Positions 19,224 to 55,750 of a DNA stretch of 64,000 bases are shown one piece after another. This DNA comes from an uncultured Colwellia sp. (GTDB lineage Bacteria > Pseudomonadota > Gammaproteobacteria > Enterobacterales > Alteromonadaceae): positions 1 through 64,000 of the forward strand of contig CAJWZC010000006.1 of NCBI GenBank assembly GCA_913049915.1, read 5' to 3'. A model generated the notes under the pieces. That model was not told the DNA's origin. It worked only from the letters and a program-made list of their open reading frames with translations, and did no database searches. Positions within the stretch are counted from its first letter, which is position 1. Every line of letters begins with the position of its first letter. The translations under genes and the position numbers were made by a program.

Positions 19224-19300
19224 TGGTCCACCCGACAGGAGTCGAACCTGTGACCTATGCCTCCGGAGGGCATCGCTCTATCCAGCTGAGCTACGGGTGG
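19224..19300 (-). tRNA. tRNA-Arg (anticodon CCG)
   Basis: 77 bases on the minus strand. The acceptor stem is CCACCCG/CGGGTGG with an encoded CCA end. The D-arm contains AGCTCAGCTGGATAGAG, the anticodon loop is CTCCGGA (anticodon CCG, reads CGG), and the T-arm contains CAGGTTCGACTCCTG. All stems pair by eye. It is close to the E. coli tRNA-Arg(CCG) sequence. Confidence 0.97.
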
Positions 19301-52526: not shown

Positions 52527-54926
52527 ATGTTAACTATTGCCGAGCAAATCGCTCAAGAACTCAATGTTAACGCGGTACAAATAAATGCCGCTATTACTTT
52601 ACTTGATGATGGTGCCACTGTGCCATTTATTGCCCGCTACCGTAAAGAAGCTACCCAAGGTTTAGATGATAATCATCTTCGCCATTTAGCGCAGCGCCTA
52701 AGCTACTTACGTGAACTCGAAGACCGTCGACAAGTTATTTTAATTAGTATTAAGCAACAAGATAAGCTGAGTGTTGAGCTCGAGAAGTTAATCACTCAAG
52801 CAGATAACAAAACTCGCTTAGAAGATTTATATTTACCCTATAAGCCAAAGCGTCGTACTAAAGGAAAAATCGCCAGTGAAGCGGGTATAGCACCTTTAGC
52901 AAATAAGCTTTTTAATAATTGGCAACTCTCTCCAACAACCGAGGCTAAATATTTTATCAATGAAGCAGCTGGCTTTTCTGATGTGAACGCCGTGTTGGAA
53001 GGTGCTTGTTATATTTTAGCGGAACGTTTTAGTGAAGATGCAAGTTTACTGGCAAAATTGCGTGCCCATCTATTAAAGCAGGCGCATTTAATCAGCAAGC
53101 TTATTAAAGGACAAGATAAAGCAGGGGCAAAATTCCGTGATTATTTTGAGCACAGTGAAAAGCTAAAATCAGTACCTTCTCATCGTATGCTTGCCATGTT
53201 GCGTGGCAGAAATGAAGGTTTCTTAAGGCTTAATATTGATGTTGATCCAGGACAAGAAATCGCTACTTTTAATAGTGCCGAACGAATCCTTATTGAGCAC
53301 TTAACGTTACGATGCCTTTCTACCGGAAATAAACAACCCGCGACAGAGTTTTTAACTAAGCTGGTGCAACTAACATGGAAAGCCAAGCTAAATGTTAGTT
53401 TAAGCAATGAACTGGTCACGAGTTTACGTGAGCAAGCAGAAACACAAGCAATAGACGTGTTTTCAAATAATCTTGCTGATTTATTGATGGCAGCACCTGC
53501 TGGTCCACAAGTAACATTAGGTTTAGACCCAGGTTTAAGAACGGGCTGTAAAATTGCCATTGTAGATGGCACAGGAAAGTTATTACATACCGCTACCATC
53601 TTCCCGCACGTCCCACAGAACCATTGGGATAAATCGATACGAACCTTGGTAAATATTTGTCGTCAGCATAAAGTTGAATTAGTGGCTATTGGCAATGGTA
53701 CTGGCTCACGTGAAAGTGATAAATTAATAGCAGAAGTTATCCAATTTTTTAAAGCAGAGGAAAGTAAAATACAACTGACTAAGATGATCGTCAGTGAAGC
53801 TGGCGCCTCTGTTTATTCTGCTTCTGAATTTGCTGCTAATGAATTTCCTGATTTAGATGTGTCAATTCGTGGCGCAGTTTCTATTGCCCGACGCCTACAA
53901 GATCCATTGGCTGAATTAGTAAAAATTGATCCGAAAGCCATTGGTGTTGGTCAATATCAGCACGATGTTAGCCAAAGCCAATTGAGTAAAACCCTTGATG
54001 ATGTTGTTGAAGATTGTGTAAATGCGGTCGGTGTTGATTTAAACAGTGCTTCAGCGGCGTTATTAACACGTGTTTCAGGATTAAACAAAACTATGGCTAG
54101 CAATATTGTTGCTTATCGAGATAGCGAAGGGCGCTTTACCAACAGAAAGCAGTTGAAAAAAGTAGCACGTTTAGGGCCTAAAGCTTTTGAGCAATCAGCG
54201 GGCTTTTTACGTATCACTGGTGGTGACAATCCGTTAGATCAATCAGCACTTCATCCTGAAAGTTACCCCGTGGTTGAAAAAATCCTTAGCTTACTCGAGC
54301 TTGATGCTAACAAAATACTTAATAATGATGAGCAACTCAAGTCACTCGACATTGATCAGCTAACCAATAATGACTTTGGTGAAGTTACCGTTAAAGATAT
54401 TATCAAAGAATTAGCTAAACCAAATCGTGATCCTAGACCCGCGTTTAAAACCGCTACTTTTGCCGAAGGTATTACAACCATGGCAGATTTAACTTTAGGC
54501 ATGATACTCGAAGGCGTTGTCTCTAATGTGGCTAACTTTGGTGCTTTTGTTGATATTGGTGTACATCAAGATGGTCTAGTACACATTTCATCAATAACCG
54601 ATAAGTTTGTTAGTGATCCGCGTGAAATTGTTAAGGCTGGCGATATTGTAAAGGTGAAGGTGTTAGAAATAGATTCATCTCGTAAGCGTATCAGTTTGAC
54701 TATGCGACTGGATGAGCAAGTAACAGAGCAAACTAAAAAACCGTCACAACCGCAAGGTGCCAGTAGTACTGCTAATAAAACGAAGAATCACTCAAGTAAT
54801 AAAAATCATCAGGGTAAATCCCCTGCACAGCAAAATAATTCGCAAGGTCGGCCGCAAGGTAAAAAGGTAGACAATGCCGTGATGGGTAACGCTTTCGCTG
54901 ATGCTTTTGCTAAGTTGAAGAAATAG
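52527..54926 (+). CDS. tex: Tex family S1 RNA-binding transcription accessory protein
   Basis: Conserved nucleic-acid-binding protein related to Spt6. 799 residues. The N-terminal helical region has [19 protein letters not shown] YqgF/RuvC-like domain follows with [20 protein letters not shown], then a helix-hairpin-helix region ([19 protein letters not shown]). The C-terminal S1 domain is [20 protein letters not shown] and onward. The tail after residue 735 is a low-complexity S, N, Q and K-rich stretch ending in [10 protein letters not shown], as in related Tex proteins. The paired RNA genes start about 70 bases downstream. Confidence 0.97.
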
Positions 54927-54961
54927 AATAAAACTATTTATAATTAATTGTTAAAATAGTG

Positions 54962-54990
54962 TTGACTATCGTAATGAGAATGATTATCAT
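54962..54990 (+). promoter_or_regulatory. Promoter with Fur box, sRNA copy 1
   Basis: -35 TTGACT (54962-54967), 17-base spacer, -10 TATCAT (54985-54990). The Fur core TGAGAATGATTATCA (54975-54989) differs from the 7-1-7 consensus TGATAATnATTATCA at one base and covers the spacer and -10, so iron-loaded Fur should block it. Confidence 0.88.
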
Positions 54991-54996
54991 TTGTTT

Positions 54997-55181
54997 CGTT
55001 GCCTAGGCAGTGAATGCTCTCTCACTAAATAGGTAACAGCAAAGAACGGAACTTAGTGGTTGTGCTCCAGGACACATGACCACTAAGTGCCACTTTGGTG
55101 TTCTACAGTTTTATTCGACTTTAAAATTTTTGATGGTTTAACCAGTAACACTTTCTTTATGCTCGTGTCACTGGTTTTTTT
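54997..55181 (+). ncRNA. Fur-regulated small RNA, copy 1
   Basis: About 185 nt from the predicted start to the terminator. Folded by eye: a 5' hairpin AGTGA/TCACT with loop carrying ATGCTCTC; a middle helix of up to 13 bp, CTTAGTGGTTGTG paired with CATGACCACTAAG; an A/T-rich single-stranded section (TTTAAAATTTTTGATGG) that could bind Hfq; and the terminator. No convincing ORF. By promoter logic it is made under iron limitation and would be expected to act on mRNAs. No RyhB or PrrF core was recognised, so the family may be new. Confidence 0.8.
55140..55181 (+). terminator. Terminator of sRNA copy 1
   Basis: 12-bp stem AACCAGTAACAC/GTGTCACTGGTT with one mismatch, 13-base loop, then TTTTTTT. 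Confidence 0.9.
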
Positions 55182-55247
55182 ATGCCTGTTATATTTTGAT
55201 TGTTTTACTCAATGATAATATTAATTAATAAAAGTTCATAAATAGTG

Positions 55248-55276
55248 TTGACTATATTAATGAGAATGATTATCAT
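55248..55276 (+). promoter_or_regulatory. Promoter with Fur box, sRNA copy 2
   Basis: -35 TTGACT (55248-55253), 17-base spacer, -10 TATCAT (55271-55276), Fur core TGAGAATGATTATCA at 55261-55275. The Fur core is identical to copy 1. Confidence 0.88.
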
Positions 55277-55282
55277 TTGATT

Positions 55283-55469
55283 AGTTGCTTAGGCAGTGAA
55301 TGCTCTCTCACTAAATAGGTAACAGCAAAGCACGGAACTTAGTGGTTATGCTTCAGGACACATAGCCACTAAGCACCACTTTGGAGCTCTACAGTTTTAA
55401 TTCGACTTTAAAATTTTTGATGGTTTAGCCAGTAACTCTTTCTTCACGGCAAAGGTTACTGGTTTTTTT
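55283..55469 (+). ncRNA. Fur-regulated small RNA, copy 2
   Basis: About 187 nt. Same architecture as copy 1. The middle helix is CTTAGTGGTTATG paired with CATAGCCACTAAG. Three pairs differ from copy 1 in sequence but stay pairable (Watson-Crick or G-U). The 5' hairpin loop is unchanged. The terminator loop is quite different. The pattern indicates selection on RNA structure and suggests two related regulators with a shared seed. Confidence 0.8.
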
Positions 55470-55470
55470 A
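55427..55470 (+). terminator. Terminator of sRNA copy 2
   Basis: Stem GCCAGTAAC/GTTACTGGT with an additional CTTT/AAAG pairing near the loop, then TTTTTTT. Confidence 0.9.
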
Positions 55471-55750
55471 TGCCTATTACTATATTTTTGTACTGTACTT
55501 TATATCTTAAAGCGACTTACTACCTCAGACATACCATTACTACTTACTTTTAATTGCTGGCTTGTCGATTAGTGGTCGCTAGTAATTCATTGGTTATACT
55601 GGCTAGACCATTTATACTCAAATTCTCAAATTAACTTCACCTGAGAGGAAAAATTTCTGAGCTTAGCTACGATTTTTGCTAATTTTTATTACAATAGATG
55701 GCAGTTTTATGAAATTAATTTTTATATTTAATACCTAGTTTTAAATAATC

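Follow-up and report, generated by a model that had tools for sequence, protein, structure and literature searches.

The window analysed here, a stretch of 64,000 nucleotides from a contig of an uncultured Colwellia sp., contains an open reading frame (ORF) that we take to be tex, the name used in the initial annotation, with profile matches to the S1 domain only. It is followed by two tandem units of about 185 nt with a spacing of 286 bp (Table 1). The initial annotation had described two units at this distance, each with a TTGACT-17-TATCAT promoter, an identical 15-bp Fur core across the spacer and the -10 element, about 185 nt of non-coding sequence with a terminator, and an identical hairpin loop. 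Sequence reading and alignment of the copies confirmed all of these elements, with coordinates accurate to a few bases. The Fur-like box, GAGAATGATTATCAT, is exact in both copies, as is the loop ATGCTCTC, and the ORF list of the window holds no frame of at least 40 amino acids that is common to the two units, a single 42-amino-acid frame lying over copy 1. When up to three mismatches are allowed, the box occurs five times on the plus strand of the window, and the only exact occurrences are these two. The sole match in the window that reaches an Rfam gathering cut-off is a tRNA gene at 19227-19300 on the minus strand.

Table 1. Features of the tex locus and of the two predicted small RNA (sRNA) units, in window coordinates
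Feature	Position	Strand	Basis
tex, conserved upstream neighbour	52527..54926	+	ORF list
Copy 1 promoter (-35 TTGACT 54962-54967, -10 TATCAT 54985-54990)	54962..54990	+	sequence
Copy 1 Fur-like box GAGAATGATTATCAT, overlapping the spacer and the -10	54976..54990	+	motif
Copy 1 predicted sRNA of about 185 nt, start estimated from the -10	54997..55181	+	MFE z -3.97
Copy 1 R1 covariance-model match	54991-55136	+	159.2 bits
Copy 1 hairpin 1, loop ATGCTCTC 55014-55021, proposed mRNA seed	54998..55037	+	fold, opening probability, covariation
Copy 1 hairpin 2, loop 55065-55074 with CAGGAC 55068-55073	55051..55088	+	fold, opening, covariation
Copy 1 conserved AU-rich AAAATTTTTGATGG, putative Hfq-type element	55123..55136	+	alignment A2
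Copy 1 intrinsic terminator	about 55140..55181	+	sequence, fold
Copy 2 promoter (-35 TTGACT 55248-55253, -10 TATCAT 55271-55276)	55248..55276	+	sequence
Copy 2 Fur-like box GAGAATGATTATCAT	55262..55276	+	motif
Copy 2 predicted sRNA of about 187 nt, start estimated from the -10	55283..55469	+	MFE z -4.69
Copy 2 R1 covariance-model match	55277-55423	+	160.8 bits
Copy 2 hairpin 1, loop ATGCTCTC 55300-55307	55284..55323	+	fold, opening probability
Copy 2 hairpin 2, loop 55351-55360 with CAGGAC 55354-55359	55338..55373	+	fold, opening probability
Copy 2 intrinsic terminator	about 55428..55469	+	sequence, fold

A DNA search of the window's own genome and its relatives placed the RNA in 33 of 99 genomes, all belonging to the same genus, with a copy extracted from 28 of the 30 loci (the exceptions being L028 and L030). 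The initial annotation had proposed a model search of related genomes, and our covariance model, R1, recovers a conserved structured RNA in 33 of the 39 genus genomes (Colwellia/Litorilituus). Of these RNA-bearing genomes, 31 have their nearest copy on the strand of tex, with its start 45-315 bases downstream of the tex match; G022 and G026 carry their copies on contigs that lack a tex match. The tex query matched all 99 genomes, in some of them (including G022, G007, and G031) only with E-values of 1e-11 to 1e-14, and these weak matches are probably to other S1-domain proteins. In E. coli, the genes behind tex are feoABC, whose promoter is a conceivable source of the sRNA units.

Both full-length RNAs fold better than all 200 of their shuffled versions, and for a 140-nt piece of copy 2, one of 200 shuffles folds as well. 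According to the initial annotation, the middle helix (hairpin 2) keeps its pairing at all three positions altered between the copies; this holds (copy 1/copy 2: U-A/U-G, U-G/U-A, and G-U/A-U), but a basal pair is lost in copy 2, so that 14 pairs in copy 1 correspond to 13 in copy 2. Covariation was assessed in alignment A2, from which R1 was built and which comprises 41 of the 48 extracted copies, leaving out those that are interrupted, fused, truncated, or without the 3' motif (L015, L017, L018, L021, L024, L025, and L035). The helix cells of these 41 rows pair in 99.0% of cases (shuffles, 95.3%; slid partners, no more than 46.5%); two-sided changes occur in 11 of 25 pairs, against 4.9 in shuffles; and none of 500 shuffles attains any of five covariation measures, all of these figures being inflated by kinship among the rows. 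The outer helix of hairpin 1 shows two-sided changes in six of its eight pairs, including a switch from C-G to G-C in 12 rows, a pattern that is hard to obtain without a real helix. In the terminator stems of the relatives, read by eye, the letters vary and pairing is retained. Conservation across the genus, together with covariation, makes chance an unlikely source of the feature, and we consider the conserved, structured RNA family with Fur-type promoters to be real.

The Fur-like box, with up to three mismatches, precedes 40 of the 46 R1 hits examined. The model itself excludes the box, yet many of the 46 hits are training rows that were first collected by it, and the 48 extracted copies carry the box by construction. 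Four of the six hits without a box are the rear parts of two interrupted copies (L068 and L069) and the second units of two fused arrays (L070 and L084); the remaining two, L072 and L085, have boxes with four mismatches each. A Fur box over the promoter, a feature of Fur-controlled iron-sparing sRNAs, is thus found here at the level of the motif, from which we infer Fur control and transcription of the predicted sRNA. A Fur box and structure alone cannot separate an sRNA from a Fur-regulated structured leader or a small-protein gene, either of which would be no trans-acting RNA, and many Colwellia copies contain a five-codon frame in hairpin 2. Each unit in the window nevertheless has its own terminator, the units occur in tandem, no 40-amino-acid ORF is common to the copies, and the five-codon frame, checked by eye, is not kept in L102 or L112, two diverged relatives described below; we regard the leader or small-protein reading as extremely improbable.

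The tandem arrangement seen in the window is not universal in the genus. The model gives one hit in 13 of the 33 genomes, a tandem pair behind tex in 12, and four hits in G015, and the two hits each in G009 and G029 represent one interrupted copy. In these last two genomes (L018 and L017, respectively, at about 1175-1650), the sole copy behind tex is split by about 250 bases inserted at an identical position, after hairpin 1 and before hairpin 2. At L021 (G020) and L024 (G013), two sRNA units lie about 103-112 bases apart, and the second lacks its own Fur-like box; a single transcript may therefore contain two hairpin-1 loops. Additional copies away from tex or on another contig were observed in G010, G012, G014, G022, and G028. 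G027, where the model finds no match, as in five other genomes of the genus, has a stretch behind tex that resembles the 3' end and terminator (L121) and reads as a decayed copy.

Beyond the genus, the RNA becomes sparse and diverged. A pattern scan of named genomes returned 29 stretches, 28 of them from Colwellia or Litorilituus; the 29th, from Desulfoluna, was rejected because it has no model match and reads as coding, and about one such stretch is expected by our own estimate. No similar DNA was found in plasmids and phages, and no pattern match in viral contigs. A model search of 295 genomes of the family detected the RNA in 19, three of these outside the genus (L072, L073, and L074), under strict filters that make misses weak evidence of absence. 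In 21 other genera, scanning the initial 1000 bases of the stretches that follow tex for the box, and then reading them, added two more, L102, which R1 scores weakly (E 0.11), and L112, unmatched at E 1, bringing the diverged relatives in other genera to five. Four of these (L073, L074, L102, and L112) lie directly behind tex, each with a Fur-like box, the boxes of L102 and L112 coming from the scan behind tex; L072 lies away from tex. The same four retain the loop CAGGACGC, which is lost in L072, and the hairpin-1 loop drifts. L102, L073, and L074 fold with z of -4.18, -5.48, and -3.46, respectively; L112 folds less well (z -1.74, with 9 of 200 shuffles as good).

We then asked how this RNA relates to known iron-responsive sRNAs. 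No Rfam family reaches its cut-off at the two copies in a search of the window, the best match under relaxed limits having an E-value of 0.39, so the RNA is not a known Rfam family. The initial annotation could see neither the RyhB nor the PrrF core, and, in agreement, neither covariance model matches the copies: for RyhB (RF00057) both fall below the gathering cut-off, and PrrF (RF00444), whose cut-off is 90 bits, scores 16.7 and 16.3 bits over about 40 bases at the promoter, which is chance level. RyhB was found in none of 60 genomes of the family at E 0.001 under strict filters, with a positive E. coli control; the 12 of 99 genomes that its model matches (six above the cut-off) are all among the 39 genomes of the order that belong to other families. 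Eight RyhB loci were read out of 14 hits, and in these the core ACATTGCTCACATTGCTTCC is identical or nearly so; four of the eight (L089, L094, L095, and L097) adjoin a polA-like ORF, presumably polA. G060, which belongs to another family, has two weak RyhB matches 366 bases apart, L097 (with an exact core) and L099, that might represent a tandem RyhB. The Colwellia RNA could be a strongly diverged RyhB orthologue, given its Fur-type promoter, sodB as a candidate target (see below), and the TTGCTC in the hairpin-1 region of L073 and L074, which resembles the RyhB core. Against this, the RyhB model matches neither the copies nor the 60 family genomes, the word ATTGCTCACATTGC finds no match better than three mismatches in 14 among the 48 Colwellia-type copies, and the RyhB core is identical or almost so in the eight loci read, four of which adjoin the polA-like ORF and not tex. 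Common descent with RyhB therefore appears highly improbable. By the tests made, the RNA is not a member of the RyhB or PrrF families, being unrelated in sequence and of a known functional kind. The proposal in the initial annotation of an independent Fur-controlled sRNA family thus gains support at the sequence level from the missing Rfam match, the conserved structure, and the RyhB search of the 60 family genomes. Among the matches listed in a search of the open-access literature, none reports such an RNA for Colwellia or its family.

The loop of hairpin 1, AUGCUCUC, is predicted to be unpaired in both copies (p 0.99-1.0), and sodB emerged as its candidate target. The initial annotation had suggested that this CU-rich loop could pair with Shine-Dalgarno (SD) regions, and it is indeed complementary to the ribosome-binding sites of sodB and ccmD. 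The iron superoxide dismutase gene, sodB, is the only gene with the Sod_Fe_C domain in 37 of the 39 genus genomes, none being found in the other two; the SodB of the window genome has its best matches among Fe-type families and structures (346.9 bits, against an NCBIfam cut-off of 348). The sodB start region of this genome reads GGAGAGCAUAAUG, in which GAGAGCAU is complementary to the hairpin-1 loop. The SD sequence of sodB is GGAGAG(C/U) in 33 of the 36 Colwellia genomes evaluated (37 rows, of which G021 is cut by a contig end). The exceptions are G026, which bears the sRNA and reads GGAGAAC, and G030 and G005, both without a detected sRNA. The word GGAGAGY is thus present at sodB in 30 of 31 genomes with a detected sRNA compared with three of five without (Fisher p 0.045), the three latter being G007, G017, and G027. 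Outside Colwellia, one of 25 loci from 24 other genera (that of G053) carries the word, a difference with a Fisher p of 1e-12 that is uncorrected for shared ancestry; in G052, the start region reads GGAGAACC, which leaves this outside count unaffected.

The predicted duplex between loop and sodB in the window genome amounts to -14.3 kcal/mol. Background starts, which were called by a script and in part represent orthologous genes of several Colwellia species (n=141), average -5.6 kcal/mol (sd 2.2), and none of the 141 reaches -12; the background energies and those of the sodB and ccmD comparisons between genomes were computed with one consensus loop and not with the loop of each genome. Among the outside sodB loci, two of 25 reach -12 kcal/mol in the short stretch (-14.7 and -12.2), and four of 25 reach -12 kcal/mol or better in a wider stretch (-50 to +30), three of them without GGAGAGY. 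In L016 and L034, a U to C change in the loop has no compensating change at sodB. The five diverged relatives, each with its own loop chosen by eye and its own sodB, pair poorly (-6.1 to -9.5 kcal/mol), G102 among them although its loop is the Colwellia loop. For comparison, RyhB of Shewanella is reported to target sodB and several cytochrome c genes but not sdhA or acnA (PMC5826389).

The second candidate, ccmD, was found by a screen for GGAGAGCA a short distance before ATG in four genomes, and the gene was named by Pfam. The screen gave 34 matches, all of which were read, against 7 for the reversed pattern, a control that is unfair because GGAG is itself an SD word; further complementary starts belong to genes without an obvious iron role (murE and a VOC protein). 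The ccmD SD is complementary to the loop in 22 of 37 genomes, made up of 21 among the 36 that were parsed and G013, which was read by eye. The site is present in 21 of 31 genomes with a detected sRNA and one of six without (p 0.031), this one being G031, and is missing in 10 of the 31 sRNA-bearing genomes. The surroundings of the SD vary, and the variants in G036 and G033 differ in letters with pairing retained. CcmD identity to the query is at least 67% in the 22 genomes with the site and at most 63% in the 15 without, which suggests that the site-bearing genomes form one lineage. Outside the family, the site is absent from all nine genomes compared, out of 18 genomes of the order with a ccmD match; within the family, the comparison covers Colwellia only. 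Iron- or heme-protein mRNAs complementary to the seed, as known for Fur-controlled iron-sparing sRNAs, are thus represented by sodB and, in part of the genus, by ccmD.

A screen for perfect 10-mers returned 39 matches in four genomes, against nine for the reversed pattern, and seven of the 39 are the sRNA itself; most of the 30 matches that were read are intragenic or antisense, so this screen is of little use. Codons 4-7 of a sodium-dependent transporter (L177, L184, and L190) contain a perfect 10-base complement of the loop in three of the four genomes, for which a protein motif may account. A perfect 10-base complement also lies upstream of thiC (NCBIfam name) at L165 in G000; of the 39 matches, the 30 that were read show it in no other genome. 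These transporter and thiC matches, the restriction of the screen to SD-type matches in four genomes, and the failure of the extra-genus relatives to match sodB would all suit a genuine Fur-controlled sRNA whose main targets are others than sodB or ccmD. The retention of the sodB match across the genus and its near absence outside point the other way, and we judge such a reading very unlikely.

The most conserved loop across genera belongs to hairpin 2. Its CAGGAC does not vary in alignment A2, and four of the five extra-genus relatives retain it. The accessible part of PMC7652899 gives the repeat of CsrB as CAGGA(U/A/C)G, which lies in hairpin loops or elsewhere in single-stranded RNA and points to CsrA binding. 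CsrB-like RNAs were found at E 0.01 in 7 of 11 genomes tested, one above the Rfam cut-off, and those of the family bear the same words (GTGCAGGACGCAC in G036 and CAGGACG twice in G051). Five CsrB-like RNAs, L336 (G000 C98:4035-4205), L335, L332, L334, and L337, lie below the cut-off, with 17-25 GGA words in the 450 bases around each. The RNA might, then, act mainly by protein binding, with the CAGGAC(A/G) of hairpin 2 bound by CsrA, iron starvation feeding into the Csr system, and the sodB match secondary. The fit of the loop to the CsrB repeat (PMC7652899, in the part available), its persistence outside the genus while the hairpin-1 loop drifts, the shared words in the CsrB-like RNAs, and the presence of two GGA words in one copy of the window and three in the other would all agree with such a role. 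However, only the hairpin-2 GGA is kept throughout A2, compared with at least two in the known base-pairing CsrA antagonists covered by the same partial source (PMC7652899); most Colwellia copies read CAGGACA and not CAGGACG; the GGAC of copy 1 is only partly open (p 0.5-0.77); L072 has lost the hairpin-2 GGA; and the complementarity to sodB and ccmD would be left unexplained. Protein binding as the main mode of action thus seems unlikely, and, given the single conserved GGA and the prevalence of CAGGACA, a link of the hairpin-2 loop to the Csr system is best viewed as a possible one. A bolder combination, which we put forward tentatively and consider doubtful, is a two-headed iron-starvation RNA in which hairpin 1 would silence sodB (and ccmD) and hairpin 2 would dock CsrA, the CsrA head being the older and the sodB seed having been added in Colwellia after the loss of RyhB.

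The reading that we favour, and consider likely, is that each copy encodes a Fur-repressed, trans-acting, iron-sparing sRNA, RyhB-like in action, that pairs with the SD region of sodB and, in part of the genus, of ccmD; judged by the sequence data, the RNA very probably spares iron by base pairing, with sodB among its targets. Each copy would be an independent gene. When iron is plentiful, Fe-Fur would occupy the box over the spacer and the -10 element and block transcription, as the motif suggests; when iron is short, the RNA would be made and would end at its own terminator. Hfq probably holds the RNA via the AU-rich stretch and the U tail. The exposed loop of hairpin 1, 5'-AUGCUCUC-3', would pair with the sodB SD region, GGAGAG(C/U)A, and in part of the genus also with that of ccmD (heme exporter, cytochrome c maturation). 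Complementarity is observed, and the pairing is expected to block ribosome binding, thereby sparing iron and heme. An iron-shortage-type promoter combined with a loop that matches the sodB ribosome-binding site suggests that the job of RyhB is probably done by the Colwellia RNA, in a family without detected RyhB, with a different sequence, and with the seed in a hairpin loop. The associations above reflect few independent events, as the sRNA and its target sites may be co-inherited.

The finding closes a gap, as a marine family without detected RyhB has its own candidate iron-sparing RNA, and the ribosome-binding site of sodB differs between the RNA-bearing genus and neighbouring genera. The diverged copies in neighbouring genera and the apparently decayed Colwellia copy make gain and loss of the circuit traceable. 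Through the CAGGAC loop, which is conserved more widely, a connection between iron and Csr in cold-sea bacteria becomes open to testing; the two-headed RNA, if true, would wire iron status into the Csr carbon-storage network.

Among known systems, RyhB is the closest in function: both belong to the class of Fur-controlled sRNAs, share sodB as a (here candidate) target, and have a seed region with TGCTC, whereas the Colwellia RNA has two large hairpins, a seed fixed in a loop, tex as its neighbour, and no match to the RyhB model. PrrF1 and PrrF2 are tandem Fur-controlled copies, and in this arrangement they resemble the pair in the window. BrrF, HrrF, and IsrR are Fur-controlled RNAs of other lineages that, by their descriptions, follow the same logic. 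BrrF of Burkholderia cenocepacia is reported to reduce sodB and to be unlike any known Fur-regulated sRNA (PMC7377471); the Colwellia RNA would add to BrrF another example of an unrelated RNA reaching the same target. McaS and GadY, base-pairing sRNAs that also bind CsrA, may share with it the combination of a seed and a GGA loop, each having at least two GGA motifs, according to the accessible part of PMC7652899, against the one conserved in the Colwellia RNA.
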